From positions 1 through 27,812 of the IMG/VR virus record IMGVR_UViG_3300020419_000069: 27,812 nucleotides of DNA; one strand, 5' to 3'. Of this stretch, positions 1 through 19,358 are shown in pieces. The stretch is from a virus. How positions within the stretch are numbered: the stretch's first letter is position 1; each line of letters starts with the position of its first letter. Below the pieces are notes generated by a model. The model saw only the letters and a list, made by a program, of their open reading frames with translations. It was not told the DNA's origin and did not search any database. Position numbers and translations under genes: made by a program.

Positions 1-201
1 TACCAGTTGTTTAACAAGGTCTTTTAATTCAGACACTTCTTCTTTTAGTTCTACTAATTCTTGTTCTTTTAACAAGTTTTTTCTTTTTATTTCTTTCTGT
101 CTTTTTATTTCAGATACATCTGAATTTAAAATTGCACCACTTTCCCTATCTCTTACAAGACTTGGATTACCTTCAACTTGTATATATCTATTTTCATCCA
201 T
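1..201 (-). CDS. Small conserved phage protein, N-terminal part only (runs off the left edge)
   Basis: The ATG at 201..199 shares one base with the TAA of the upstream 1714-residue gene (TAATG), so the two are translationally coupled. The 67 codons visible begin MDENRYIQVEGNPSLVRDRE and continue SGAILNSDVSE, followed by a Lys/Glu-rich heptad-like stretch (about residues 33-67) that looks like a coiled coil. From memory, the pattern VEGxxxLVRDxxSGAILN recurs in a small protein of unknown function in many T4-like marine phages. No enzymatic motif is seen. The stop codon lies outside the window, so length is unknown. Being last in the baseplate operon suggests a late structural or assembly role, but that is inference only. 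Confidence 0.75.
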   Translation of the reverse strand, partial: MDENRYIQVEGNPSLVRDRESGAILNSDVSEIKRQKEIKRKNLLKEQELVELKEEVSELKDLVKQLV

Positions 202-3200
202 TATGTTGCAAGTGCGATAATACGCAAGTCCTTAAAGACAGGCACTTTCGAAGAATTAGTTGAATTCATTACAATTTTAACTTGATATTGGTTAAAAGAT
301 GCGATTGCATTTTGTAATGATGCCATGTATCGGTACTCTTTGAAATTAGTATTATCAGCTGCAACTGGAGATTCTAGATTTGCAAGGACATAACTTTGTT
401 CTGTAATATCTTGTCCTTCGGTTGCAGTTCTAAAATACACATCAAAACTTGCACTAGAAGGTTTTCTACATGCAAATAATATTTTTAAGTTAACCGCATC
501 TTCGAGAAGTGTAATTGGTCTAGTTATATGTTTACTTAATGCACTACCACCAAATGGTTGTGTTTCTGCAACAAATAGTAGTGGAGTATTACTTACACCC
601 GCAGACGCACCCCCAGATACTTGATTATCAATTCTGTGATGAACTGCAAGTAGTCCACTTCTTTGTGTATCGATTACTGGTGACACATCTGCACGAGTTG
701 TATTCATATTTGCACGAATAGTTGTAGATTTTTCACCCGCACCTAATTGTGCAGTTTCATTAGCTGCAGTTGCAAGTAATCTTGGTGCATCAAAAGAATT
801 ATCAGTATTTAATACTAAGTCCGTTGAAAAACTTGCATCTTTTGAAAATCTTGTTTCATTACCCGCAAGTGAATTACCCGTAGTAAATTTACCAGAAAAA
901 CTTAAAGTTGTATCTTCTGGAACTATATTGTCCAAAGTTGGAACAGCAATATCCATTAAAATTTGTCTGGTTGATTTAACTCTAGAACCACCAACATAAC
1001 CAGATGCAGTTGCAGAGTCATTTATATTTACTTGATAAGAGTTTCCGTCTACTCCAGTAATTGTGTGTGCTTTATTTACTGCACCCGCAGAGTCTATTCC
1101 GTTTAAAACTCCAGTTCCCGCAGAGTCAAAACCACTAATTGTGACTGCGTCCCCTACTTTAAATCCATGGTCTGGTGAAAGTACAGTAATACTTGTACTA
1201 CCCGAGTCCGTTAAGATTGGGTTTGCAGACAATAAATTATCTGGTACTGGTGCATTTTCAAAAGTTGCAAAACCACCCGCAGTACTAAATTCTGCTTTAA
1301 ACATAGTAAACGCAAGGTCTTTAGTTTGGTCAGGCTCCCATGTAGTTCCGTTCTGTGATTTAAATAAACTTCCTAATGATGGTTGTCTGTTAATTCTTCT
1401 TTCAGTACTTCCTAATTCAAATGCATAAGTTTCACCAACATATGCATTATATGAAGTACAATCTGCAAGTAATACAATTGCATATTCGGTATCTGCATTT
1501 AAAAATACTGGTTCAGTAAATTCAAATGTACTCGGTGCAGATAAAACTGCATCTTGAGTTTGACTAGCAGGTGTATTAACCGAAGCAGGATTTAAAAATA
1601 CACTTGAGCCTGGAACTATATGGTCAGAACTAGGCGCACCATTTACAACTGGTCTTATTTGCAATTGCACTGGTATTGCAGTATCTTTAGTTGAAAAATA
1701 ACATTGTACTTTAGTGACAAACATACCACTTGGTGCAGTCACCATAAAGGTTTGTGCAAGTGGGTCAGACCATGTGACTTGTTCCCATGTTCTTGTTGCA
1801 ATACTTGTTGTTCTAGTACTAACAATATCTTGTTGTCTAGTATCAATTGTTCCTCTTGAAGTAAATACTTTACTTGCAAAAGATGTTGCAGATGATTGAT
1901 TATCAACTGAAATATCTAATAATTTAAATTCTCTATCACCACTTCTAAATCTGTTTGTATCAGAAGAAGGTATTAAGAAAGAACCTTCCACTGCTCCATT
2001 TGCATCGGTGACAATATTTGTACTTCCACTCGGATGTGCGTTTAATCCTTGATATTGATTACCAACATAAGTTTGTCCCGCAACATTTGTGAATTCACTT
2101 GTTCCCGCACGAGTAAAGTCATCAAATGCAGTCCCGTCAAAGAATGGGAAATATCTTGTTGTTGGTCTTAAACCTTCTACTTTATAGAATACTAATCTTG
2201 GTCGCATAAATGGAACAAAAGTTAAAGATACTGTTCTGTCCGCAATTACTTCATTTACTACTTCACTTGAAGTTATTATCTCTTGCGAGAAAGTTCTAGT
2301 TCTTCTTCTACCTTGTGTCACATCCCGTGTCACGACATTAGGATTAAATGTGACATTAGGAATACCAAGCCAGTTCCAACCCCAATTACCAAACCAGTTA
2401 GTAGTATCTAATTGTAATTGACTAAAAGCACCAAAATTAGGCAACTGGACACCATTCCATGCAAAAGGTCTTGGTTGTTGTCCTTGTATTACTCCTTGGT
2501 CAACTGTGACTTCTACATTGGTCACATTTGCGGGTTCGAATTCTGTGTTTACCCAGATGTCTGACTCAGGAGATAGAGTAATTTGTCCTTCGTGTACAAC
2601 AACTGCAAATGGGTTAACATTTTCTGTTCCAGAAACAAGTCTATTTGCAATTGCAGAGTCATGACTATAATGTAAATAAATATTATCCCCTTTTAATATT
2701 ACATTCGAAGATTTTGCAGAGTCATAATCTAATGGTACATTTAATACAGAAACATGTGGATGTAAAGTTTTTGTTGCTGGATTTATTGATGCACGATAAT
2801 CTGGGTCTTGGTTATCAGAGAATGCTCTGTCTTTAAAGTTATCAACTAAGAAACCAGTCTTAGTTCTTGCAGTACCACTAGAGTCAGTAATTAATAAAGT
2901 TTCTGTTTGTTGTTCTAAGAAAGTTAATGCAGTTGTTTCTTCAAGGTCATCTATTCTCTCTTCAAGTCTTGCAATGTCTTCCATACGAAATCTTTTTGAT
3001 TTCATTACTCTTGTAGATAAATCCGAGTCACTAATACCATACCCATTTAAATTTAGTTCAAATAGACTTAAAGTATTTTCTGGTGTAGGTGGTAATTGTC
3101 TACTAAACCCAGGCTGACCTGACTCTAATTTTAATGTTCCATCTATATTTGCAACTATTTTATCTGACCTTGGTAAATAAAATTCTACATCGGTAGTCAC

Positions 3201-5345
3201 AACATCACCATTTGAAGGTAATTCATGAATAGTTCCAAAAGAACCAGTAGCTGCACCACTATCTCTAACACTTCTAAAGTCAATTACGTCTCTTAAATTT
3301 ACAGATTTTCTTGAACTAATTGTTAAGTCTGGTATGTTCTCATAATTAACCTGACCAGTGTACGAATTAACAGAGAAAAAGTCTCCAGTCGCACCGTGTG
3401 AGAAAAACTTATAACGAGTAAAAATTGTACCACTTGGTGCAGAAGTATTTTTTCTTACAACCAATCTACCATTTTGATAATAGTTTGTTCTTTGTCCGTT
3501 ATCAACTTCAAATTTTGCAGATAAATCCGCACCATTCGAATCAGTTTGTTTCATTGATAGGACTTCAAAGATATCTGCTCTTGGTAATTTTAAGAAAGAT
3601 ATACCACCTTCGGTCACTATTGTACCAGAATGTGTTTCTTCTGTCAAGGTTTTTGTTCTAGACTGTCCAATAGATTTATTTACTTTTGCATAAACTGTCA
3701 CTGCTTTGTTATTAGTTAAATTAGATATAGTCAATGAATTACTTCCAACTGAACCAAAAGATGCGTCAGAGTCAGTAAGACCGTCAGAGTCAGTTGTGAC
3801 TAACCAGTCCGAAGTGTTTACAAAAGTTTCTCCAGTTGTAGATAAAGTAAGTGTTAACTGACCACTACCGTTTGCAGTACCCGTAAACATTCTTTGTACT
3901 TCAAGTGAGATATCACTTAAGTTTTTAGGTCTTGGTCTAGATGTTGGAAAAACTAATGATTGTTCTACCGAGTTTCGTAAAATTGCATTACTATTTTCTA
4001 AAATTATATCTGCAAAATCTGTAGTGCTTGTACCTAAAGACCTAACACTACGGAATGAACCAGAGGACATATTGACATCAAATAAATAAACTTTATAGTT
4101 TGCACCATCTTCTTGTATTGCTCTTACTCTTGCAGTTCCAACTGTAGAACCACCATGTGCAACTGCGTCTCTTAAATTAACTAAACCAAAGGATGCAATA
4201 CCTAGATTACCAAGTATATTTGGTACGAGTACAAATGAACCATAGTTAACACCTACTACATCATTATTAATTATAGTTGTTGTTCTTGGTTTCGGAACAA
4301 CAAGTTTTGTTGGTTTTTCAGTATTAAATCTATATCCATTAATATATGCAGTTCCTTTTGAAACATTTGCAATTAAATTAGATGTACTTCCCCCCGCAGA
4401 GTCTTCTTCATAAGAAACTCTAAATGGATTAACAATGTAATTACCAGACTCTTCTTTTGTTCTTAACGCAAGAACATCATTTATTTTATTGTAATTATCT
4501 GCACCCGTGACTTGTTCTATTATCTCACCTCGAACTACATCACAATAAAATACAAAGTTATCGGACGCAGATACCGTAGTTTTGTTTGCAAGAGTCAATT
4601 GAATTCTGTATCGGTCTGCTCCAGGCGATGTAGTATTTGGAGTTGCACCTTGATTATCAAACAATGCAGTATCATCTGCAGTTGTGACAATATCTTCTTT
4701 TACAGTAAATCCAATTACTGCATCTGGATATTTAGAATATTTAGAAATTAATACGGATTGTGGTTTTGCAAAAACAAAATGTCCTCTTACGAAGAAGTCT
4801 CCACCCGCATTGTTTATAAGTGTACCTTGTCCAGTCGCTGGGTTTGCGACAGTGTTTGTTGTTTGTACAGTTAAAGTAGTTGCACCCGAAGTAATATTTT
4901 CACCCGCAGTAAATCTTACTGGAGTTGTACCTGATAAACCACTTGTATCAGTATCAGTGTATTGCACATATATTGTTGCGGGGTCACTACCAGTTGCAAC
5001 TTCGACTCTTACTACTCTTGCTTTTATACTTGAAGTTGCACCCGTAAATTCTAATCCAATCAAAGTTGAAGAATCTGTTGGTAATGCATTTGTTGTTGTA
5101 TTTAACTTGACAAATTCAAAAGAATTGTTTATAGTCGGCCCGCCTGGGTTTACAGCTGCACCATCTTTAAATACATTACGACCAAATCTTGCAACTTCTT
5201 CTTGAATAATAGTCTGCATTTGCGTAAGTTCTCTTGCCTGCAATGCACGACCAGAGTTAAATAATATTCTATGATAATTATCACTATCTAGAAAATCATC
5301 TTTATATGTGGTTTCGAAACTATTTTTAGTAAAGTTAGTTGCCAT
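201..5345 (-). CDS. Giant DUF4815-type virion protein (baseplate periphery or fibre)
   Basis: The 1714-residue product starts MATNFTKNSFETTYKDDF. Its N-terminus (about residues 25-75) carries the pattern ILFNSGRALQARELTQMQTI followed by ARFGRNVFKDGAAVNPGG, which I recognise as the start of DUF4815-type proteins of T4-like marine phages. The rest is Ser/Thr/Asn-rich beta structure typical of virion proteins, with a short predicted helical stretch near residues 780-825 (RMEDIARLEERIDDLEETT). No signal peptide or membrane segment is visible. It starts 4 nt after the gp8 stop and ends in a TAATG overlap with the next small gene. A position at the end of the baseplate operon fits a long peripheral baseplate or tail-fibre attachment protein (T4 gp10/gp12 region), but no T4 orthologue is assigned. 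Aspartate-serine motifs (DSAG, DSD) are unusually frequent. Confidence 0.75.
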   Translation of the reverse strand: MATNFTKNSFETTYKDDFLDSDNYHRILFNSGRALQARELTQMQTIIQEEVARFGRNVFKDGAAVNPGGPTINNSFEFVKLNTTTNALPTDSSTLIGLEFTGATSSIKARVVRVEVATGSDPATIYVQYTDTDTSGLSGTTPVRFTAGENITSGATTLTVQTTNTVANPATGQGTLINNAGGDFFVRGHFVFAKPQSVLISKYSKYPDAVIGFTVKEDIVTTADDTALFDNQGATPNTTSPGADRYRIQLTLANKTTVSASDNFVFYCDVVRGEIIEQVTGADNYNKINDVLALRTKEESGNYIVNPFRVSYEEDSAGGSTSNLIANVSKGTAYINGYRFNTEKPTKLVVPKPRTTTIINNDVVGVNYGSFVLVPNILGNLGIASFGLVNLRDAVAHGGSTVGTARVRAIQEDGANYKVYLFDVNMSSGSFRSVRSLGTSTTDFADIILENSNAILRNSVEQSLVFPTSRPRPKNLSDISLEVQRMFTGTANGSGQLTLTLSTTGETFVNTSDWLVTTDSDGLTDSDASFGSVGSNSLTISNLTNNKAVTVYAKVNKSIGQSRTKTLTEETHSGTIVTEGGISFLKLPRADIFEVLSMKQTDSNGADLSAKFEVDNGQRTNYYQNGRLVVRKNTSAPSGTIFTRYKFFSHGATGDFFSVNSYTGQVNYENIPDLTISSRKSVNLRDVIDFRSVRDSGAATGSFGTIHELPSNGDVVTTDVEFYLPRSDKIVANIDGTLKLESGQPGFSRQLPPTPENTLSLFELNLNGYGISDSDLSTRVMKSKRFRMEDIARLEERIDDLEETTALTFLEQQTETLLITDSSGTARTKTGFLVDNFKDRAFSDNQDPDYRASINPATKTLHPHVSVLNVPLDYDSAKSSNVILKGDNIYLHYSHDSAIANRLVSGTENVNPFAVVVHEGQITLSPESDIWVNTEFEPANVTNVEVTVDQGVIQGQQPRPFAWNGVQLPNFGAFSQLQLDTTNWFGNWGWNWLGIPNVTFNPNVVTRDVTQGRRRTRTFSQEIITSSEVVNEVIADRTVSLTFVPFMRPRLVFYKVEGLRPTTRYFPFFDGTAFDDFTRAGTSEFTNVAGQTYVGNQYQGLNAHPSGSTNIVTDANGAVEGSFLIPSSDTNRFRSGDREFKLLDISVDNQSSATSFASKVFTSRGTIDTRQQDIVSTRTTSIATRTWEQVTWSDPLAQTFMVTAPSGMFVTKVQCYFSTKDTAIPVQLQIRPVVNGAPSSDHIVPGSSVFLNPASVNTPASQTQDAVLSAPSTFEFTEPVFLNADTEYAIVLLADCTSYNAYVGETYAFELGSTERRINRQPSLGSLFKSQNGTTWEPDQTKDLAFTMFKAEFSTAGGFATFENAPVPDNLLSANPILTDSGSTSITVLSPDHGFKVGDAVTISGFDSAGTGVLNGIDSAGAVNKAHTITGVDGNSYQVNINDSATASGYVGGSRVKSTRQILMDIAVPTLDNIVPEDTTLSFSGKFTTGNSLAGNETRFSKDASFSTDLVLNTDNSFDAPRLLATAANETAQLGAGEKSTTIRANMNTTRADVSPVIDTQRSGLLAVHHRIDNQVSGGASAGVSNTPLLFVAETQPFGGSALSKHITRPITLLEDAVNLKILFACRKPSSASFDVYFRTATEGQDITEQSYVLANLESPVAADNTNFKEYRYMASLQNAIASFNQYQVKIVMNSTNSSKVPVFKDLRIIALAT

Positions 5346-8824: not shown

Positions 8825-10669
8825 TTAATTTAATACATCTGTTGATACTTCAACCACTGATACTAATGACCTTCCTAAGTCATGTTTTATAACGTCTTGT
8901 CTAAAAGGTGTGACAAATGATTGGTTATCAGGTGTTGCAGTTATTTTTACAAAACCCTCACCACTTGGTATTGCATCTATTTGTAATCCTACTAAATTAA
9001 TAGTATCATTCGTATATGACCCTACATTATCAACAACAATTGCAGATGCAATAGTATCAAAAACTTCAAGAATGTTAGAATTTAAACGGTTTCTTATAAT
9101 ACAGTTTTTATTTTGAAAAGTAAATGCAGTTGATGTTAAAATTCTATTTACATCATCTGGACTTGCAATCGCTTGAGGCATTCTTAAAGTATAATCAGAT
9201 ATTGCAGTTAGAGTTGGAGTAATTCTTTGTTGCATTCCGACAGTGCATCGAGAAGATAAAATTGATGGACTTACTGCGTCAATTAGTGTTAATAAATTAC
9301 TTCGTCTAAATGATTGTTTAAATTTACCAGTGTTTGCACTAAAATAATTAGTTATAACATCTTGTACTTGGTTTTTGATTGCATTTTCAGAAAGAGTAGT
9401 TAAGTTGGGATTAAATTGAAAGAATACACTTGTTTCAATAAATGTTTGTACTGGGTCAGTAAATTTAACATCAAAAGATGCAACTGATAAATCTTTTGCA
9501 AGTGCAACAATACTGTCTTTTGTTGTTTGCTTAATTGTTTCTCCCGAAGTCTCATCATTTTCTACTGCATTACTAAACAGTAAAGATAAAAAGATTACAC
9601 CAAATTCAGGTTCAAGTGCATCTTCACCACCAAATGAAGAAATATCATTTAATAACGAACCAAAGTTTCTTTGCACTAGAGTTGCATAATCTTCCGCAGT
9701 GACCATTCTATTTTGTGTTGCGTATTGAAATGGTGCAGTTGTTCTGATTGACGCCATAGATTCTTTTGGAGAACCACCAAAAGAGTTTGATACTGTAGTA
9801 GAAGTTATTGTGTAATTAACACCACTAACAGTTATTTGACTTACTGGAGTAAAAGTTTTTGCCCCATTTGCCTCTGCACCCGCACATGCTAGATAATCTA
9901 CGGTCACTTTATTACCCGCAACTGGAGATACTCCAAGAACTGTACCATTACCAAAAGTAATTTCAAAATCTCCTTTTGGTGTTTCTTTTAGTATATAAAT
10001 CTTAGAACTTTCTGTTATATTCGTTGCTTTTCTTAAATCGGTATAAGTTGTACCAGCAGAAGACGAAACAGTTTCAAAACTTCTTACGATTGCGGTATCA
10101 ATGTCAATAGTTTCGTCTGGAATAATGTATGCAAAGTTTTCCGCTTGTCCAGTAATTCTAAAAGTTTTTGTTTTTTGTTTTCCCTCATAAATGAGTATAT
10201 CTCCACTACCATCCGAAGATTGAAAAGTATAACTTCCATTTCCATCATCAGTTGCAGAAATATCTTCTTGAGTTTGAAAAATATATGCAACTCCATCAAC
10301 TGTACTATTAAAAGTAAATCCACTCGGTATTGTTATTTTGTTAGGTCGACCAGCAACACCCGCAAGACTTGTTGTTAAATTAACAATTCCTCGAGAACAA
10401 TTAACGGAATCAGGAATATATCCAATACCTTCTGCAAGTGACACTAAAGAGCTACGCAATTGTGCAGTACCAAGATAAGATTCGTTTAATGCAAAATTAG
10501 CGATGAGTCCATTAAAATGCGTATTCGTTGCAAGAACATCTAATACATTCGATAGTCCAGATGCTTCAAAATTATAATCACTAAACTCAGTCGACTGAGT
10601 TAAACTGGTCTTTAAATTATTTTTAATTGCAGTAAAATCTAGTGCGGTTGATTGAATTGTAGTTGCCAT
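8825..10669 (-). CDS. 6: Baseplate wedge subunit, gp6-like
   Basis: The 614-residue product is close to T4 gp6 (about 660). The N-terminus has FTAIKNNLKTSLTQSTEFSD, then YNFEASGLSNVLDVLATNTH and ALNESYLGTAQLRSSLVSLA, the hallmark of gp6/gpJ-type wedge proteins that form the ring around the hub. A central segment RMVTAEDYATLVQRNFGSL (about residues 320-340) is also characteristic. In T4, gp6 dimers join neighbouring wedges, and with gp53 and gp25 they form the inner baseplate. Here gp25 precedes gp6 directly (TAA, one base, then ATG) and gp53 lies upstream in the same operon, so the core wedge proteins are clustered. Confidence 0.9.
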   Translation of the reverse strand: MATTIQSTALDFTAIKNNLKTSLTQSTEFSDYNFEASGLSNVLDVLATNTHFNGLIANFALNESYLGTAQLRSSLVSLAEGIGYIPDSVNCSRGIVNLTTSLAGVAGRPNKITIPSGFTFNSTVDGVAYIFQTQEDISATDDGNGSYTFQSSDGSGDILIYEGKQKTKTFRITGQAENFAYIIPDETIDIDTAIVRSFETVSSSAGTTYTDLRKATNITESSKIYILKETPKGDFEITFGNGTVLGVSPVAGNKVTVDYLACAGAEANGAKTFTPVSQITVSGVNYTITSTTVSNSFGGSPKESMASIRTTAPFQYATQNRMVTAEDYATLVQRNFGSLLNDISSFGGEDALEPEFGVIFLSLLFSNAVENDETSGETIKQTTKDSIVALAKDLSVASFDVKFTDPVQTFIETSVFFQFNPNLTTLSENAIKNQVQDVITNYFSANTGKFKQSFRRSNLLTLIDAVSPSILSSRCTVGMQQRITPTLTAISDYTLRMPQAIASPDDVNRILTSTAFTFQNKNCIIRNRLNSNILEVFDTIASAIVVDNVGSYTNDTINLVGLQIDAIPSGEGFVKITATPDNQSFVTPFRQDVIKHDLGRSLVSVVEVSTDVLN

Positions 10670-10670
10670 T

Positions 10671-11120
10671 TTATCTTAGTCTCCTTAAGTTGGTAGTAAA
10701 CTCAACGACTTCTTGAGTGTTTATTATTTTAAATTCTAATTTTACACCCAATCTATTATAGTCTGGGTCAGTTTGTACTTCTATATTTAAAACTTGAACT
10801 CTCGGTTCAAATCTTTGTATTATTGCAATAATATCTCTTTTTAAAAAATAGTCACTTTCTCCGTCTGCGAGTTCAAATAACATACCTGTAATGTCCGCAC
10901 CAAATTTTGCATTAAAAGGTTTTTCTAACTTATTAGTTGATAATAAATTTTTTATTGCTTGTTTTACTGCACCTTGGTCAGTCTTTTTAAAAATATCACC
11001 AGATGTACTTTTTACAGCAAAATTTAAATCTATGTCAATAAAACTTTGATTTCTTGCAGACGATACTGTGGATGTATTTAAATCCCCTTGGTCTTCTCTT
11101 GAATATGCGTATCTAGTCAT
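10671..11120 (-). CDS. 25: Baseplate wedge subunit, gp25-like
   Basis: The 149-residue product matches the gp25 (GPW) family in size (T4 gp25 about 132) and layout. It has FIDIDLNFAVKSTSGDIFKK near residues 28-47, then AVKQAIKNLLSTNKLEKPFN, FGADITGMLFELAD and a C-terminal YNRLGVKLEFKI strand. In T4-like baseplates gp25 sits in the wedge core with gp6 and gp53 and is the point from which sheath assembly starts. The start codon lies 5 nt after a perfect TATAAATA box that fills the gap after the upstream TAG, and there is no normal ribosome site between box and ATG. The gene is therefore either read from upstream or from a leaderless late transcript. The gp6 gene follows after one base. Confidence 0.9.
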   Translation of the reverse strand: MTRYAYSREDQGDLNTSTVSSARNQSFIDIDLNFAVKSTSGDIFKKTDQGAVKQAIKNLLSTNKLEKPFNAKFGADITGMLFELADGESDYFLKRDIIAIIQRFEPRVQVLNIEVQTDPDYNRLGVKLEFKIINTQEVVEFTTNLRRLR

Positions 11121-11133: not shown

Positions 11134-11724
11134 CTATTTTTCTTTAATCTCTACCAATTCATTTGCACTTTGTAAAACATTGTTATATACTGTTTCCACA
11201 TTCTTACTAAAGTTTGCATCAAAAGTTTCTCCAACAACAGGCATTTCTACACCAATTTGTGCAGTTAATGACCCATCTGGATTATAGGTATCATAATCTA
11301 ATATAAGTTTTTCGTAAGTTGTATAATCTTTCCAGTATTCTGCAATCTCAAATGTTGTTTCGAAATCAATAGTTCCATCTTGATTGATTACTTGGTAATA
11401 AATTAATTGTCCTTTGTTTTTCTTTTCACAATCTCCTGATAAAGTTTCTGTTGGGCCTGCACGATAAATACCTTCACTAACAATCAATCGAACATCATTA
11501 AATAATTCTATATTACCTTGAATTACTCTCATCATTTCTGCTTGTAAGTATAATTGTCTTGCGGTAGACAGTCGAGTTTCTTCATCACCCACAAAATCAA
11601 ATGGAGTTCTATCACCATATGCACCTAAAAACTTTGCAATGGTTATTCCAGGCCCTAATTTTGTTGCAGAACTTATTTGTCCCGCAAAGTTAGGATTAAA
11701 TACTGGGTCAACTAATATTATCAT
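11134..11724 (-). CDS. Conserved hypothetical protein between the gp5-type needle and gp25
   Basis: The 196-residue product starts MIILVDPVFNPNFAGQISSA and is predicted to be mixed alpha/beta, with an acidic central part (AEYWKDYTTYEKLILDYDTY). I do not recognise a family. It is not a PAAR-type spike tip: the Gly/Pro/His pattern of PAAR proteins is missing. It overlaps the needle gene by ATGA and ends directly at the late box of gp25, so it belongs to the hub/wedge operon and probably acts in hub or spike assembly. In marine T4-like phages a gene of unknown function often sits in this place. The last point is from memory. Confidence 0.55.
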   Translation of the reverse strand: MIILVDPVFNPNFAGQISSATKLGPGITIAKFLGAYGDRTPFDFVGDEETRLSTARQLYLQAEMMRVIQGNIELFNDVRLIVSEGIYRAGPTETLSGDCEKKNKGQLIYYQVINQDGTIDFETTFEIAEYWKDYTTYEKLILDYDTYNPDGSLTAQIGVEMPVVGETFDANFSKNVETVYNNVLQSANELVEIKEK

Positions 11725-13208
11725 TTTGGTGTAAACCTCTTTCCTCTATTTTCAATTGCATTACCTATTGGAATATATCCAAATCTAGATGTTGGTTCTT
11801 TACCAACAGTTCTACCAATTGCGGGTGGATTTGCAGTAAAAGATTTGTCTCCAACTCTTTCTTCACTCATAAGTTGTCCAAGTAAAGTGTCTCGATTACC
11901 TGAACTACGCATTGCAGAACGAATTTCTTGAGTACTTGGATGTTTGTTAAAGATACCTTTATAATCATTAGTTAGGTCAAGAATATCTTTTAACTTATCT
12001 CCTTCATCAATTACTACATCACGAATTGCAAATTCACCTTGATTTGCAAGTGCAGTCACTACTTCTGGTACTGGCCACTCTTCAAAAGTACCACTCCAAG
12101 GCGCACCAGATAAATCTTGTTGTTGATTAATAGTTTCGGGCGCACCACCAGTTGGTACACTTCCACCACTACTTGTTAAATTTTCTGCATAATTTTGTGA
12201 CTCAGTGACACCCGAAGTTTCTGCAAACTTAGACTTTTCAGCTTTCCATGCAAATCGAGAAAACATTGCGGATGTTGATTGTCCAAAAAACGAACCAAAG
12301 AAAGCTGCATCACTAGCATATGGTTTAGGGCCTGCATTACCTTGATATACCTTACCAGTAAAGTTAATTGATTTACCCCCAATATCACCCGCAGTACCAA
12401 GAACTGATAATTTTTCACTACCAGTTATGTTTGTTGCTTTTGATGTAGCTGCAATCGACTCTTTACCAGTTATTAATATACCCTTTTCTGAATTCATTTC
12501 GACTTCACCTTGTACCCAGTTTTTCTGCGTACCCTTGACGAATTGATTATTATCTGATAACATAATATCTGAGTGTTTTCCAATGGTCTTGGTAGATTTA
12601 GTTCCTTTAGTCACATATTCTGAATTGTTTGAAACAAAAGTACGATGGTTATCACGAATACCCATAATATGATTACCCGCAACATTTACATTATAATTAC
12701 CACCAACATCAACATTGTAGTCTCCAGTCACGGTTAAATTCATATTACCTTTATATACTAAATTACCCGCACCTTCAACAATAACTGTTTGGTCTCCACC
12801 AGTCACTTCAACCTTGTTATTTGTAGAAGAAACAACCACACTTCCATCTGCTCGCATTTCTACACCCGCACCAGTTCGATGTCTGATTAGTATTCTCTCT
12901 CCGCCTGGAGTATCATCATATTCAACGACATGTCCCGATATCGTTTCATCTACTTGGTTAAAAGGAAACTCCGAAGGTCTTTGGTCTTCTATATTTAAAG
13001 GTACGCCAATATCTCCACCCCCAGTGTAGAGTTTATTAATTTTTGTACCTCTTGCGGCTTTGTTTATACCAGAACCAAAGTTATAGTCTCTTTTCGGAAA
13101 CTCACCCGTGGGGTCTTGAAAACCATCTTCGGGTATACCAAGACTTTCTTCAACTCCTTCACCTAATTTTTGTGTTCTTAATTCAAAATTATCTTTTTTT
13201 GTTGTCAT
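11721..13208 (-). CDS. Tail needle / central spike protein with gp5-type C-terminal beta-helix
   Basis: The 495-residue product has SGHVVEYDDTPGGERILIRH and GAGVEMRADGSVVV at about residues 91-127, the typical lead-in to the gp5/VgrG needle. This is followed by short strand repeats to about residue 285, such as NLTVTGDYNVDVGGNYNVNV and AGNHIMGIRDNHRTFV, which fit the triple-stranded beta-helix of T4 gp5. The C-terminal third (about 290-495) has low-complexity Ser/Gly/Gln linkers and an extra helical part. T4 gp5 carries OB fold, lysozyme and needle in one chain. Here this protein has only the needle, while OB and cell-wall domains lie in the two preceding genes. Both ends overlap their neighbours by ATGA. 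Confidence 0.8.
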   Translation of the reverse strand: MTTKKDNFELRTQKLGEGVEESLGIPEDGFQDPTGEFPKRDYNFGSGINKAARGTKINKLYTGGGDIGVPLNIEDQRPSEFPFNQVDETISGHVVEYDDTPGGERILIRHRTGAGVEMRADGSVVVSSTNNKVEVTGGDQTVIVEGAGNLVYKGNMNLTVTGDYNVDVGGNYNVNVAGNHIMGIRDNHRTFVSNNSEYVTKGTKSTKTIGKHSDIMLSDNNQFVKGTQKNWVQGEVEMNSEKGILITGKESIAATSKATNITGSEKLSVLGTAGDIGGKSINFTGKVYQGNAGPKPYASDAAFFGSFFGQSTSAMFSRFAWKAEKSKFAETSGVTESQNYAENLTSSGGSVPTGGAPETINQQQDLSGAPWSGTFEEWPVPEVVTALANQGEFAIRDVVIDEGDKLKDILDLTNDYKGIFNKHPSTQEIRSAMRSSGNRDTLLGQLMSEERVGDKSFTANPPAIGRTVGKEPTSRFGYIPIGNAIENRGKRFTPK

Positions 13209-15136
13209 TTGTTCACCGATGTATCTGTTGGGTCTACTGGACTTTCTAAAAGTGGGTCAACAATTTTATTTGTTGATTTTCTAAATACTTTTTCAACATA
13301 GTCTTGCACATCAAAGTAAGGGTCTATTTCATCAACGTCCAAGTCGTTGTGACCAAAAACATTTCCGCCTGGATACTTACTATAAAATGCCTCTAAAAAC
13401 CTCTCTAAAGTCGTGTATTGTTCTCTAGTAAACGAAGATGCAGACCTATTCGCAAGTGGTTCAACTTGTCCAGTTGCGATATTAATACCACCAACTAATA
13501 CAATTCCAATTGAAAAATTGTTATGATTATTGACGGAAGTGTGGTCACCTATTCTGTCTGCTGGACGCCCTCGTTGTAATCTACCGTCTCTTCTTATTAC
13601 ATAATGATATCCAATACCGTCATGTCCTAATTTATTTTGCATATTATTTATTTCAATAGCACCGATATCTTTATCAGTTGTAGTTTCCGTTGCATGAATT
13701 ACAATTTCACTGATAGGTCTTGAAATTGCTTGCATTTCTGAATTAAGTTCTTCTACTGACGATACATAAGTAAACACATCAAGACTACTAGTTCTACCAG
13801 ACCATTTGGAAATTTCTTCTCCGATTGGTTTTGGGGGGTCATAAAATTCTGTATCTAATACTGTTTGACCCGCAATTGTTGGATTTAATTTTTTAATTTC
13901 ATCATCCGCTCTATCAATTACTCCAGTTGCGTTATCAATTTCATCACTTGAAATACCCTCTTCTTTTGCAACTCTTTCTACTTCTGATTTAAAATTTTCT
14001 GGATTAGTACCAACTGGTACATTTTCAACAACTCCTTTCATTTTTTCGGATATGTTTGCATTACCAGTTATTGACTTTATTGCTTTTGCGTCACCTAAAG
14101 GCGTATCTTCGGTAATATTTTCGGTAATTTCTTTTAATTTACCAGATGTAAATGCATTACCACTTGCCATACCAATAACTGTATTCTTGGTGTTTGAAGT
14201 AAGACCTTCGGTAATGTTTTGTAAATTACCCCCAAGACCAACATCTAGTTTACTTGTTAAATCTGCAGTAAATCCACTTGCACCTGATTTTAGTCTATCT
14301 ATTCCACTTTTTAAATCACCAAGTTTATCTAATTTATCCATGTTTGGAATGCTAGTTAGAGTAAGTTTTTTTGTATCTAATTTTGCAGAAAGTGCTTCAA
14401 TACCCGTAATATTTTTTACATTACCTAAATCATCTAATGGGTCGTCTATAGTTTTCAATGCGGGAACTCCTGAGATTGCACCCCCTAGTTTGTCTCCAAG
14501 ACCACCTATGTTTGGAATATCAAGATTAGGAACAACATCAGCAATTTCAGATAATTCACTTGCACTTAAAACTGAACTTAATCCCGCTTGCACTTCACTT
14601 CCTTTTCCGTTTGCAAGTGACTTTGCTTTATCTAATGCATCACTTATTCCTGATGGACTTCCAGACGCAATCATATTTAAAGGAGACTTTGGAAGTTCTA
14701 ATTTAGGTATCGGTAAACCAGTTATTGCACCAAGTAATGATGATAATGCTTGTGGTACTTCACCCCCAGTTTTTTCTGCACTTACAGTAAATCCTGCTGA
14801 GTCATATCCTGAGTCTGCACTTGTATAATTAAGTACAACATTTGATGTAGAATAAGGCAGTGTTTTACTTTTAGGGTCTATTTGTCCAGTAATACCAGCT
14901 GCGTCTGTTATAAGTGCAACACCTTCGCCTTGAATAACATCACCCGCAGAATTTTGAACTACTTCAAGAGACTCAATACCCGAAGTGGTTTTATCGTCTC
15001 GACCAATAATTGTGTCAAGTTTTGCTCTCCTTTCTTCTACCGTATTAACTTTAGTTTCAGTTTGATACTTTTGTTCCGCATCTTGACGGTTTAAAGATTT
15101 TAATCTTGCGTTAATCTGTCTTCTTAAATTAGCCAC
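13205..15136 (-). CDS. Virion-associated N-acetylmuramoyl-L-alanine amidase (hub)
   Basis: The start is GTG at 15136 (MANLRRQINARLKSLN), inside the end of the OB gene (8-nt overlap), with GGAG about 9 nt upstream. There is no nearby in-frame ATG. Residues 1 to about 450 are low-complexity Leu/Ser/Asp/Gly/Lys sequence, perhaps an extended or chaperone-like scaffold. Residues about 470-620 form an Amidase_2/T7-lysozyme-like domain: SEIVIHATETT with zinc ligand His481, GIGYHYVIRRDGRLQRGRP with the catalytic-type Tyr at 510 or 512, GDHTSVNNHNNFSIGIVLVGG, and FGHNDLDVDEIDPYF with His596 and Asp605 as the other ligands. Asp replaces the Cys of T7 lysozyme, as in AmiD-type enzymes. The likely role is cutting the stem-peptide to MurNAc bond during tail penetration, in place of the T4 gp5 lysozyme. 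Confidence 0.82.
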   Translation of the reverse strand: MANLRRQINARLKSLNRQDAEQKYQTETKVNTVEERRAKLDTIIGRDDKTTSGIESLEVVQNSAGDVIQGEGVALITDAAGITGQIDPKSKTLPYSTSNVVLNYTSADSGYDSAGFTVSAEKTGGEVPQALSSLLGAITGLPIPKLELPKSPLNMIASGSPSGISDALDKAKSLANGKGSEVQAGLSSVLSASELSEIADVVPNLDIPNIGGLGDKLGGAISGVPALKTIDDPLDDLGNVKNITGIEALSAKLDTKKLTLTSIPNMDKLDKLGDLKSGIDRLKSGASGFTADLTSKLDVGLGGNLQNITEGLTSNTKNTVIGMASGNAFTSGKLKEITENITEDTPLGDAKAIKSITGNANISEKMKGVVENVPVGTNPENFKSEVERVAKEEGISSDEIDNATGVIDRADDEIKKLNPTIAGQTVLDTEFYDPPKPIGEEISKWSGRTSSLDVFTYVSSVEELNSEMQAISRPISEIVIHATETTTDKDIGAIEINNMQNKLGHDGIGYHYVIRRDGRLQRGRPADRIGDHTSVNNHNNFSIGIVLVGGINIATGQVEPLANRSASSFTREQYTTLERFLEAFYSKYPGGNVFGHNDLDVDEIDPYFDVQDYVEKVFRKSTNKIVDPLLESPVDPTDTSVNK

Positions 15137-16010
15137 CGATACTCTCCAGTATTTCTAATGCTTTTTGTTCAACCTCTCCCGCAACACCCTTCTGGGTATT
15201 TTCTAAATAAAATTTAGTGACAATATCTGCAAGATTATTTATACCCTCTATATTATCTGATTGTAGTAATAATATATTTGCGTTTGCTTTTTTACCCCTT
15301 AATTCGTATGCAACAAACTCTAACTGTTTATCAAATTTATTAAAAGCAGGTGAAAAGTTAACTAAATCTACAAAACGACTACCCGTAAAACCACCAATAC
15401 CTTTTTTATCACCTTCGGTGTTAGTCACAAGTTTACTAGTAATAAATAAACCCGCAGTCAAAGTAATTGATTGTTTTTCGGTATAACCTAAATTCAAAAA
15501 GAATCGAACTGCAGTTTTTAGTCTTTGACTTCTAACTTTTTCAGATATTATTTTTCTATTGTTATCATTATCAATACCTATATCTTTAGGTTTTTTTAAT
15601 TTAACTCCAGAACTAAATAAATTTTCTGGTTTACTGTCGTCCCCGATATCTTCTTGAGTTTGTTTAGTTTGTGTTATTGTAGGTAATTCAATGTGTGGTA
15701 GAGAACCTAAAATAATTGGTGTTTGTGAGTGTCTACCGTCCATAAACATACCAAAGACTAATGAGTTTGGTTGTATTTTTGGTGATTTACCAATACCAGA
15801 TATACCCCCTTCGGTAGTTGGAAGAACACATTGCGCCCATGGTAAGTCTTGTTGTGGTAATAAGTATGTTTCATGACTATGTAAACCATGTACTCTTATT
15901 TTTACACGACCCTCAAAACCTAATGGTGGACTTGCATCTATTACAGTTGCAATAAACCAACGAATATTATCTCCATAATATTCATGCGATAGTGGTTTTA
16001 ATTCAATCAT
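15129..16010 (-). CDS. 5: Baseplate hub protein: gp5-type OB fold plus degenerate tail-lysozyme-like domain
   Basis: The 293-residue product has an N-terminal OB fold (about residues 15-105): IRWFIATVIDASPPLGFEGR, VKIRVHGLHS, LPWAQCVLPTTEGG and VFGMFMDGRHSQTPIILGSL, as in T4 gp5 and cyanophage hub proteins. Residues about 165-275 resemble the phage tail lysozyme family: FFLNLGYTEKQSITLTAGLF, GIGGFTGSRF, then FDKQLEFVAYELRG. The Glu expected in the family's N-L-x-x-E-S-G segment is not seen at the matching place (AGLFITSKLVTNT), so this domain may be inactive. The gene overlaps the gp27-like gene by ATGA and the amidase gene by 8 nt. In T4 the gp5 OB domain binds the gp27 trimer, so neighbours and partners match. 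The OB call is firm; the lysozyme-like call is weaker. Confidence 0.75.
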   Translation of the reverse strand: MIELKPLSHEYYGDNIRWFIATVIDASPPLGFEGRVKIRVHGLHSHETYLLPQQDLPWAQCVLPTTEGGISGIGKSPKIQPNSLVFGMFMDGRHSQTPIILGSLPHIELPTITQTKQTQEDIGDDSKPENLFSSGVKLKKPKDIGIDNDNNRKIISEKVRSQRLKTAVRFFLNLGYTEKQSITLTAGLFITSKLVTNTEGDKKGIGGFTGSRFVDLVNFSPAFNKFDKQLEFVAYELRGKKANANILLLQSDNIEGINNLADIVTKFYLENTQKGVAGEVEQKALEILESIGG

Positions 16011-17338
16011 ATTGCTTTCTCTAGTTTTGCAACTTGCATATAGGTTTCGTGTTTTTCCCCTCTAAAAGTATGTCTTAGTTTAGTAATTAAATGTTTACCA
16101 GATTTCTTTTTATCAATTAAATTATCTTTTGTTGTTTGTTCTCCAACTTCTAAATTTGTATTTACAATTCTTACATTTACGGTATCACCAACTGTTGCTT
16201 TACCTATAAAAAAACCTGAGCCTGGAATTACAAGATGATAACAGTTTTTAAGTAAAAGGTTGTTAATACTTGCAGATTCTAATTTTTTTGTAAGTAATGA
16301 TTTATCAAACTCATCATGATATGATTTGTAATCGCCATATACCCCACTTGATAAAATTGAATGTATATTAACTGCATCGTAAGATGCGAGTGGAATATCA
16401 TTTAATCTATATTGGTCATCATAAACATTTTGTTTTTCAATTTTAATTATACCTTCTCTATCTAAATTATTCAAAGTGTTTAAAACATTATAGTGTCTTC
16501 TTTCTATCTGTCCCGTATTTAAATTAGTTGTTTCTTGATTTGCACCATAATGTCCCTCTACAATAGACTCTAATAAATTATTAGACTCGCCAGGAATTAA
16601 AGCGGTTATTATAAATGCACTTTCTAATTCACTTTTTGCTTCTGCAGTACTAACATTTGCGGGATTATAAGTATATGGAAAATTTTCATTCCAAGGTTCT
16701 TGACTATACATAACATCTAAATTACCAAATCTAAGATTATTATCTTGTATAGTTGACCAGATAAAATACGGAGAACCAGTAGTTGTAGTTGCACGACTAG
16801 TTAACCATTTGATTGCTTTATTAGGGTTTAAGTTAGGTATGATAACCCTTATACTGTCTTGTATGGCATCTAACTGACCAGTGTAAGATGTATCAACAAA
16901 CTTATCTAAATATGATATTGCTATTTTAGTAATAATATTAGAAATTGAACCTCGGTAAGAATTCCTTAATTTTTGTGCAGTTGCAAGAATACCATGTTCT
17001 TCGATTACACTAAAGGTAAAAACTCCTTGACTATTAGAACCCCTATTTTCTTGTTTAATACTATCTAAAATAAAAGTTTTTTCCATTACTGGTTCTATAT
17101 CCTTATCTTTTCCAGCAATTTTTATTCTTAATTTTTCCGTACCTCTAAAATCTATTTCATCAAATAAAGATTTATCATCCAGTATTGTTATTTCACCAGT
17201 AATACACATATCGTATATACTTTCATAAAGACTTAATTCCATGATTAAATTTCTAATATCAATAGACTCAGTTTCAAAACCACCAAGTCTATCCGCTGTT
17301 AAAGAAGCTTCTGTTATAATATATTGACTTTGTTGCAT
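16007..17338 (-). CDS. 27: Baseplate hub protein, gp27-like
   Basis: The 443-residue product (T4 gp27 about 391) begins MQQSQYIITEASLTADRLGG and has SIDIRNLIMELSLYESIYDM followed by GEITILDDKSLFDEIDF. This is the tube-like first domain seen in gp27 and gpD-type hub proteins. Later it contains NPNKAIKWLTSRA, SPYFIWSTIQDN, VVIPG-type strands (YHLVIPGSGFFIGKATVGDT) and a C-terminal LITKLRHTFRGEKHETYMQV, again typical of hub proteins bridging tube and spike. It lies one base after gp53 and overlaps the OB-fold gene by ATGA. In T4, trimeric gp27 forms the cup that holds gp5. The exact T4 name is inferred from position and pattern, not from strong identity. Confidence 0.7.
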   Translation of the reverse strand: MQQSQYIITEASLTADRLGGFETESIDIRNLIMELSLYESIYDMCITGEITILDDKSLFDEIDFRGTEKLRIKIAGKDKDIEPVMEKTFILDSIKQENRGSNSQGVFTFSVIEEHGILATAQKLRNSYRGSISNIITKIAISYLDKFVDTSYTGQLDAIQDSIRVIIPNLNPNKAIKWLTSRATTTTGSPYFIWSTIQDNNLRFGNLDVMYSQEPWNENFPYTYNPANVSTAEAKSELESAFIITALIPGESNNLLESIVEGHYGANQETTNLNTGQIERRHYNVLNTLNNLDREGIIKIEKQNVYDDQYRLNDIPLASYDAVNIHSILSSGVYGDYKSYHDEFDKSLLTKKLESASINNLLLKNCYHLVIPGSGFFIGKATVGDTVNVRIVNTNLEVGEQTTKDNLIDKKKSGKHLITKLRHTFRGEKHETYMQVAKLEKAI

Positions 17339-17339
17339 A

Positions 17340-18089
17340 TCATCTTTGTTTTATGAACCTTTGAAATTCAGATACAATTGATACTATATTTCTCGGATGA
17401 ATTACTACAATTTCTCTTAACTCATCGTTTTTAGTTTCGAGTCTATCACGATAAGTTATGGGTGTTAAACTTGCACCTGGCCCACTAGATGGGTCAATGT
17501 CTACTTGTTCTCCATTATCTTCATAATGATGCACTGCATTAAATTGTTCAGTTTCACCAGTTATTGTAAGAGTTCGGGTTGGACTACCCGTTGCACCAGT
17601 ATCTACATAAGATATAGTTTCTCCCGCAGTAAATTTAGTACCCGTTGTTAATTCAACAAATAATTGTCCTAAATCTAAGTTTCTTTTTACAATCTTACCA
17701 ATTGAACTTGAAGATTGTCCTTCAATTACCTGACCTACTGGAAACAATGCACCAATTTCACTTGTTGTTGTTAAAACACGATTTGGATATTTTGATTTTA
17801 CTTGGTCAAGTATTTCATCATTATTTAGTGGCCATCCACTTAATTTTATGTGGTCATTCATTAAATAAAATGTCCAGTAATAATCCATAGTACCATAAAG
17901 TTTATGAGATACTATATCAGGTCTATCACCAGATAATATTTGATATTTTTCTGTAAAAGCTATATTATTTTTGATTTGGTCAATCAAATCTACATATTGA
18001 GTTATGTCCTTAAATAAATCTATATCAGAATTATCACCAAATTTATATTCTGCAAATTGAAAGTTTTTAAAATAATTACCAGATGCCAT
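17340..18089 (-). CDS. 53: Baseplate wedge subunit, gp53-like
   Basis: The 249-residue product (T4 gp53 about 196) begins MASGNYFKNFQFAEYKFGDN. It has YQILSGDRPDIVSHKLYGTM followed by DYYWTFYLMNDHIKLSGWPL (about residues 48-86), the conserved gp53 signature, which includes a LysM-like P-D-x-x-(S/A)-x-x-x-Y-G segment. In T4, gp53 sits over the gp6/gp25 core and holds adjacent wedges together, completing the hexagonal baseplate. The C-terminal half is a beta-rich extension (GQVIEGQSSSSIGKIVKRNL) ending RDRLETKNDELREIVVIHP. The Shine-Dalgarno GGAG overlaps the TAG of the gp48-like gene. Confidence 0.88.
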   Translation of the reverse strand: MASGNYFKNFQFAEYKFGDNSDIDLFKDITQYVDLIDQIKNNIAFTEKYQILSGDRPDIVSHKLYGTMDYYWTFYLMNDHIKLSGWPLNNDEILDQVKSKYPNRVLTTTSEIGALFPVGQVIEGQSSSSIGKIVKRNLDLGQLFVELTTGTKFTAGETISYVDTGATGSPTRTLTITGETEQFNAVHHYEDNGEQVDIDPSSGPGASLTPITYRDRLETKNDELREIVVIHPRNIVSIVSEFQRFIKQR

Positions 18090-18098
18090 TTATATCTC

Positions 18099-19358
18099 CT
18101 AAAATCCGTGTTCTGAAATATCTTTTCTAGAAAGAGTTCTAGTTTCGGTGAATGCAAGTGACATATCTATTTCAGTAAAATGTGGATTGTCTCCACCATG
18201 CATTGCTTGATTTGTTGGATTGTAAACTACACTCACATCCCTTAAAAAACAAGGTTGTATTTTTTGAGTAATTGTTTGACCATTATATAGTGGTGTAATT
18301 ACAAACTTTTTAGGAAATCTATAACCAACCGAAACTGGTATTTGACTACCTTCGTCACCTATGGGTACATTGATGTCCTCTGGATAAAGTTCTTCTCTAA
18401 AAAATTTAATTATTTTTTTAACTTGTTCTGCTTCTTCTAAAGATTTTGCAATAAATTTAAACTGAAATGCAAATTCTCTAAGTGCAACTGATTTAAATAA
18501 TGCACGAGTATTTGGATTTAATCTAACTCCGCCCGCTTGTCTTAGTGCAGACATCGTACCTTCTCCAAGACTTTTTCCTATAACATTTACTTGTAATGCA
18601 GCTAATGTTGCAAGGTCACCACTCTGTTCACCAAAGAGAGAAGTTATAGTTGCTCCACTTCCTTCAATAACACTTTGTATCATACCCCCTACACCAGTTT
18701 GTCCACCTGAAGCACCACCTTCAACAAGACCACCCGCAAAACCTAAATCAGCATTTTCATAACCTACATTGTCTCTAAAATTTAAAGCCATTGGTAAATA
18801 TAAAGTGACTCTTTTTCTTTCTGTCAAAGGTTCTACAGATTGAGAAGAATTTGGATTTTCTTCTGTTGCTCTTTCTAGTATTTTACCTTCTAATTCTTTT
18901 TTCTTTTCTTTTGCGTCTTGTCTTTCTTTAACAACATCATAGTCTCTATTCTGCTTTCTCTTTCCAGTACTAGAGCCTGTAGCTGCAAAGGCTGTTTCTT
19001 TAGCCTCTAATACTTCTAGTTCTGCTTTTTCTTCTTCTGTTGCAGCTTCTTGTATTACATTGTCTTCAAATTTTTTAATAGCATCATTAGTACCTTGTTC
19101 AGCAAGACTTTCAACGATTTCGTTATTTGTTTCTTCTTGTACCATTTCAAAAGTAAGTGTACCTTTATAATCCAAATCATCTAAGGGATATTTAAGATTG
19201 ACTACTTCTTGTATTGGTTTTTGTTCCGAACCATCCGATGCCTTTTCTTTTGGTTCATCTGTGGTTTGGTCTGCTAGTTCTTCTTTTTTTGCATTAACTC
19301 TAGCCTCTCTTTCTTCTCGAGCTTTTCTTCTCTGTATTATGTTTTCTCTTCTAGGCAT
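18099..19358 (-). CDS. 48: Baseplate tail-tube cap, gp48-like, with long charged N-terminal region
   Basis: The 419-residue product (T4 gp48 about 364) carries its conserved half at about residues 185-419: TLYLPMALNFRDNVGYENAD, FAFQFKFIAKSLEEAEQVKK, IIKFFREELYP and PCFLRDVSVVYNPTNQAMHG. These match gp48-type proteins that end the tube-forming platform on the baseplate. The first ~180 residues are dominated by Lys, Glu and Ala (MPRRENIIQRRKAREEREAR, then TEEEKAELEVLEAKE) and are predicted to be coiled coil or disordered, unlike T4 gp48. It is the first gene of the minus-strand operon, with a late box at 19388..19395 and Shine-Dalgarno AGGAAA about 6 nt before the ATG. It is divergent from gp4. 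Confidence 0.75.
   Translation of the reverse strand: MPRRENIIQRRKAREEREARVNAKKEELADQTTDEPKEKASDGSEQKPIQEVVNLKYPLDDLDYKGTLTFEMVQEETNNEIVESLAEQGTNDAIKKFEDNVIQEAATEEEKAELEVLEAKETAFAATGSSTGKRKQNRDYDVVKERQDAKEKKKELEGKILERATEENPNSSQSVEPLTERKRVTLYLPMALNFRDNVGYENADLGFAGGLVEGGASGGQTGVGGMIQSVIEGSGATITSLFGEQSGDLATLAALQVNVIGKSLGEGTMSALRQAGGVRLNPNTRALFKSVALREFAFQFKFIAKSLEEAEQVKKIIKFFREELYPEDINVPIGDEGSQIPVSVGYRFPKKFVITPLYNGQTITQKIQPCFLRDVSVVYNPTNQAMHGGDNPHFTEIDMSLAFTETRTLSRKDISEHGF

Follow-up and report, generated by a model that had tools for sequence, protein, structure and literature searches.

In phage T4, the OB fold on the hub, the wall enzyme and the trimeric beta-helix needle belong to one chain, gp5, which is cut after the lysozyme at Ser351/Ala352. 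The locus described here raises the question of whether the same puncturing device can be encoded as parts that are separate from the outset. The window, i.e., the whole 27,812-nt IMG/VR virus record IMGVR_UViG_3300020419_000069, is a virus fragment whose − strand encodes a tail module of T4 type. In a preliminary description, three overlapping genes of this module had been read as gp5 split into an OB hub, a zinc amidase and a needle.

Gene Layout and Conservation of the Split

The three open reading frames begin and end exactly where they had been placed in the preliminary description, all on the − strand: an OB gene of 293 aa (15129..16010), a middle gene of 643 aa with a GTG start (13205..15136) and a needle gene of 495 aa (11721..13208). 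The overlaps also agree, with 8 nt between the OB and middle genes (GTGGCTAA, preceded by GGAGAG) and 4 nt between the middle and needle genes (ATGA). The surrounding genes, related to the baseplate neighbours of T4 gp5, follow the order gp48-gp53-gp27-OB-amidase-needle-196aa-gp25-gp6 on the same strand, with overlaps mostly of 1 to 11 nt. Upstream lie the tail-tube cap (gp48/54-like, 18099..19358; phrog_230, 4e-32), the gp53 baseplate wedge (17340..18089; phrog_232, 3e-22) and the gp27-like hub protein (16007..17338), which was assigned by synteny and by a match to the phrog_350 tail protein (3e-39), and whose stop overlaps the OB gene start by 4 nt. Downstream of the needle gene, and overlapping it by 4 nt, a 196-aa protein conserved across the clade (11134..11724) matched no Pfam or PHROGs family; it is followed by the baseplate wedge genes for gp25 (10671..11120; GPW_gp25, 7e-13) and gp6 (8825..10669; phrog_219, 7e-125). 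At 201-5345, the window also encodes a 1714-aa protein of a large unknown family, phrog_358.

Scans of viral contigs, with each of the three proteins as query, gave more than 100 loci. In 89 related loci, with 56 different middle proteins, the three genes occur in the same order. All distinct loci in which the three were found (56/56) keep this order and the separation into genes, in contrast with the single chain of T4. The gp27, 196-aa, gp25 and gp6 genes are also present in 38/56 of them. This clade comprises many uncultured T4-like phages of marine origin, and no cultured member of it was found. The overlap between the OB and amidase genes is 1 nt in 34/56 distinct loci and 11 nt in 10/56, and that between the amidase and needle genes is 4 or 11 nt in 37 of 56; such small overlaps would fit translational coupling.

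In 11/56 distinct loci, a PP-loop ATPase-like gene of 233-235 aa lies between the amidase and needle genes (e.g., L003:10800-11507 and L005:7589-8290), with some carriers 87% identical to the window. Its product has the motifs SGGxDTALLLY and CxxCYWCEEK and a weak QueC-like match (phrog_1550, 0.0055). It is absent from the window, and no match was obtained among 50,697 phage records.

Domains of the Three Proteins

The OB-fold region covers about aa 1-109 of the OB protein (15684..16010, − strand). It was recognized by Pfam (Gp5_OB, aa 47-108, E 8.2e-8, over the cut-off), by an OB profile of our own and by Foldseek (T4 gp5, 1.4e-4); in a profile search of the PDB, T4 gp5 was matched with an E of about 1e-8. 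In PHROGs, the OB gene aligns with profile positions 11-109 of the gp5 family phrog_430 (3e-25) and the needle gene with positions 332-518 of 868 (8e-29). The two genes therefore match two ends of one gp5 family, as expected from the proposal that they are gp5-like pieces.

The OB protein does not consist of the OB fold alone, contrary to its earlier reading as a plain OB hub. A lysozyme-fold domain occupies its C-terminal half (aa 145-292; 15135..15578, − strand). Phage_lysozyme2 (PF18013) was detected at E up to 1 in 31/40 OB proteins, of which 38 belong to the clade and two to Mosig and C48C1, with a best value of 7e-12; for the window protein, the match behind the OB fold (aa 167-274) is below the cut-off, with E 0.19. 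In the AlphaFold model built with 38 sequences, this domain has a pLDDT around 87. Foldseek matched the model to phi29 gp13 (3csr) with a probability of 1.00, and VIA-align superposed the domain on phi29 gp13 (3csq) with a Z of 15.4 over 140 residues and an rmsd of 2.3 Å, a score far above unrelated rows. T4 gp5 (1wth) spans the OB and lysozyme parts of the model (14..288 on 6..341), with a loose overall fit of rmsd 17.

The active site was read by alignment with gp5 of Ochrobactrum phage vB_OspM_OC, whose lysozyme2 domain keeps the motif KQESGF; by analogy with other lysozymes, its Glu is presumed here to be the catalytic residue. A PDB sequence search with this OC domain gave no match. In the clade, Glu never occurs in the aligned column (0/38), where A, S, T, V, M or a gap is found instead, and the window protein has Thr191 at this position. 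Based on model and alignment, the C-terminal half of the OB protein shares the fold of the phi29 gp13 N-terminal domain and of Phage_lysozyme2 and has lost the key acid. With no Glu left in any of the 38 members, the neighbour of the amidase is a dead lysozyme. The earlier statement that a glycosidase had been replaced by an amidase thus does not hold as written, because the Glu-less domain is still present behind the OB fold. A search for the GH24 lysozyme (PF00959) found no match in any of the three window proteins or in the records of 8 longer relatives.

The C-terminal domain of the middle protein is an Amidase_2 domain (PF01510; aa 473-606, 13319..13720, − strand), with 58.3 bits against a curated cut-off of 26 and E 1.3e-15. 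It aligns with T7 lysozyme at E 6e-15, with which it shares the fold family and the Zn site. H481 and H596 align with the Zn histidines, D605 with the Zn cysteine and Y510 with Tyr46; the roles of these residues, and of Lys128 as catalytic, are those known for T7 lysozyme and are presumed to apply. The predicted Zn ligands are kept in 36/36 middle proteins, and Tyr510 is Tyr in 34/36. Unlike T7 lysozyme, the middle protein has Asp for Cys as the third ligand, Glu603 at the Lys128 position (Glu in 33/36), a 450-aa N-terminal part and a place in a tail operon. Since the Lys128 equivalent is Glu603, amidase activity is not assured.

The amidase domain is preceded by approximately 450 aa that evolve fast and match no Pfam family. 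Identity to the related protein of L017 is 111/395 in this part versus 110/166 in the amidase part. Its length had been described correctly, but it is not strictly low-complexity as had been stated, with a Shannon entropy of 3.35-3.9 bits per 50 aa. The AlphaFold model of the middle protein has a mean pLDDT of 56 and shows, with low confidence, mostly helices in the N-terminal part. Profile searches found no relationship of this part with the helical inserts of other gp5 proteins or with the 451-aa gene of phage C48C1.

The needle protein starts with linker-1 (aa 28-56, GFQDPTGEFP...NKAARG; 13041..13127, − strand), followed by the gp5 trimerisation core and beta-helix (aa 79-265; 12414..12974, − strand), which correspond to the phrog_430 match and contain the motif SGH..EYDDTPGGER. 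The Pfam families Gp5_C and Gp5_trimer_C were detected below the cut-off only. A linker profile made from six other gp5 linkers, which excluded the clade itself and the core sequence, matched the window needle protein with E 9e-6 and relatives down to 8e-8. In T4 gp5, the OB fold is immediately followed by the motif GFSDPTGQYP (aa 113); then come the lysozyme and, at 397, the core TESGH. Among enzyme-less gp5 proteins, motif and core are at 114 and 186 in Vibrio phage EniLVp02 and at 113 and 203 in Pelagibacter phage Mosig, while in the window needle protein GFQDPTGEFP is at 29 and the core at 91. By sequence, the needle gene is everything behind the OB fold of an enzyme-less gp5.

Since the needle gene carries the GFxDPxGxYP linker, the break lies between the OB fold and linker-1 (OB|linker-1) and not at Ser351/Ala352; a split at the T4 gp5 maturation site was ruled out by the same position of linker-1. 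The order of parts had been described as that of the T4 domains, which is roughly correct but not exact: the GH24 domain of T4 is between linker-1 and the needle, whereas the amidase and the break of the clade are between the OB fold and linker-1.

Behind the beta-helix, the needle protein has a C-terminal extension of about 230 aa (11721-12413) with the conserved end FGYxPIGNxIENRGKRF. No PAAR tip protein (PF05488) was found in the window or in the incomplete records of 5 relatives.

Role of the Middle Gene and Proposed Device

Sequence, structure models and analogy with known systems make it probable that the products of the three genes form the central spike of a contractile tail of T4 type, with separate needle and amidase subunits. 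This reading is favoured by synteny, by phrog_430 matches at both the OB and needle genes, by fused counterparts in other phages (OC, GH19-containing and enzyme-less forms), by the lysozyme fold in the OB protein, by the Zn ligands kept in 36/36 proteins, by the hub position of Amidase_2 in longer relatives, some with a separate M15 gene (see below), and by the T4 precedent of gp5* and gp5C. The Glu603 at the Lys128 position counts against it, as do the unmatched N-terminal 450 aa and their poor model.

The overlaps of 4–8 nt would also result if a frameshift error in sequencing or assembly had broken a fused gene. The same order in 89 related loci shows that there is no frameshift, and the explanation was ruled out by this conservation: the 56 distinct middle proteins range from 585 to 1063 aa, each with its own start, the GTG of the window gene is preceded by the Shine-Dalgarno-like GGAGAG, and a two-gene split arose independently in 56 Melnitz-type loci (see below). 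The chance of such an artefact is practically nil, and the split proposed earlier is genuine and old. It is also improbable, to a high degree, that the amidase is a lysis endolysin placed by chance among tail genes. The nearest PHROGs family, phrog_822, is named lysis amidase, many of the best phage matches are annotated as endolysin or lysozyme, and the scanned proteins of the window include no other lysin. Nevertheless, an endolysin would not be expected from a protein of 643 aa with a 450-aa extension, whose gene is always between the hub and needle genes and mostly overlaps them. In 7/8 longer relatives (53-149 kb), Amidase_2 occurs once per record, at the hub place; the eighth is without it, and there the contig end cuts the middle gene. 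Four records (149-kb, 103-kb, 107-kb and 65-kb) contain a stand-alone M15 gene in an open frame of 157-187 aa. The one in the 149-kb relative (L132:2938-3402, 154 aa), beside a PhoH-like gene, matches the phrog_894 endolysin at 6e-42. Since long relatives have a separate endolysin-type M15 gene, the lysis role is probably filled elsewhere, and the hub amidase is probably not the lysin. Its earlier placement as an enzyme of the spike locus agrees with its position in the hub operon.

A structural or wall-binding role of the middle gene, with an inactive amidase fold acting as a peptidoglycan-binding or assembly part, is unlikely. The Glu at the Lys128 position in 33/36 proteins would fit such a role, and the neighbouring lysozyme fold, already Glu-less, indicates that erosion does occur in this device. 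However, amidase-active PGRPs are likewise not known to have the Lys128 of T7 lysozyme. Full conservation of the Zn ligands, the Tyr46 equivalent in 34/36 proteins and the far better conservation of the amidase part than of the preceding 450 aa also argue against an inactive fold.

For the spike with separate subunits, the following sequence of events can be proposed, with presence of the proteins in the virion suggested by synteny. A trimer of the OB/pseudo-lysozyme protein would cap the gp27-like hub, and a separate trimeric needle would be seated on it without a covalent bond and would pierce the outer membrane. The middle protein may bring the N-acetylmuramoyl-L-alanine amidase to the tip by docking with its long N-terminal part, which is mostly helical in the model. 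When the tail contracts, the needle would enter and then detach, and the amidase is predicted to cut the MurNAc-L-Ala bond so that the tube crosses the wall. The mature T4 virion contains gp5* and gp5C as two chains, held together as (gp27-gp5*-gp5C)3; gp5C restrains lysozyme activity to 10%, and the needle must leave before full activity is reached (PMC3004832). Separate genes would reach this end state, with the needle freed from the enzyme, in the absence of proteolysis. With the parts separate from the outset, the spike could stay as it is while the enzyme is lost, acquired or extended.

The OB–Linker-1 Junction in Other Phages

The OB, linker and core profiles were run on all loci fetched. 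The wall enzyme in T4-like gp5 proteins is GH24, GH19, M15/VanY, CHAP, lysozyme2, Amidase_2 or none, so that the proposed exchange of the enzyme independently of the spike is well supported across T4-like phages. It does not extend to the inside of the clade. A survey of the middle gene in related loci, which had been suggested as a search for other enzymes, found only Amidase_2 (36/36), with an additional Peptidase_M15_3 match in 9 proteins; in those whose layout was read, it follows the amidase. The clade has therefore extended its enzyme and never exchanged it.

Material between the OB fold and linker-1 of a fused gp5 was found in OC, L205, L214 and L215. The OC protein has 808 aa in the order OB - M15 - lysozyme2 - GFQDP linker - needle; it shares the junction with the clade but is fused and has no amidase. 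A GH19-type domain is at this place in L205 and L215, L214 being outside the domain scan. The L205 gene (L205:768-4733) encodes 1321 aa and that of L215 (L215:1191-4373), cut by the contig end, 1061 aa, both with a domain of the GH19 chitinase type. Fused proteins with an enzyme-less OB-linker-needle arrangement occur in Mosig, HTVC008M, EniLVp02, Los1, DLP6, L204, L207, L212 and L213, of which DLP6, L207, L212 and L213 were called enzyme-less by length only. CHAP is carried by Ackermannvirus S8.

In Methylophilales phage Melnitz, an isolate, and in 56 related loci, gp5 is cut at the same junction into two genes, with a 1-nt overlap in 48 of these loci; a split of this kind thus also occurs outside the window. 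In contrast with the clade, they have no middle gene; weak matches place a VanY-type domain on the OB gene and a VanY/endolysin-type part at the C-terminal end of the linker-needle gene. In a gp6 tree, Melnitz groups with the fused HTVC008M and Mosig, while the window clade is sister to the fused C48C1, which indicates separate origins of the two splits (root arbitrary). The well-supported branches require a minimum of two transitions between the fused and the split state; since the Mosig and OC rows are partial and the root is arbitrary, the tree also allows refusion. On these grounds, it is put forward tentatively, as a less than even prospect, that OB|linker-1 is a plug-in site where several families of wall enzymes were inserted independently and the gene was cut at least twice, and that in the clade the old lysozyme became a pseudo-enzyme docking a separate, exchangeable amidase subunit.

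All parts of the device are already known, and the three-gene arrangement with pseudo-lysozyme and amidase is apparently undescribed: the literature searched contained neither this form nor OB|linker-1 as a repeated insertion and fission site. The nearest descriptions concern a P1 gp5 that lacks lysozyme (PMC9024508), a gp5 variant of CBB (PMC5259590) and Melnitz, in a paper that uses neither the term gp5 nor the term OB domain (PMC9004378). In PHROGs, needle-only proteins and OB-type 'tail lysozyme' proteins each have families of their own, so split forms are already in databases; no comment on them was found. The textbook single-chain machine would here have parts already separated by evolution, and two questions become open to experiment: the need for a covalent link between needle and enzyme, and the way in which a phage exchanges its wall enzyme on host change. 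The junction also suggests a natural spike position that tolerates extra domains.

Two further genomes look split. In Prochlorococcus phage MED4-213 (L118:5860-9545), a 938-aa protein with an OB region and a 289-aa needle overlap by 1 nt, with a VanY gene upstream, and in Rhizobium AF3 a 288-aa protein has OB and CHAP, with the needle not on the same gene.
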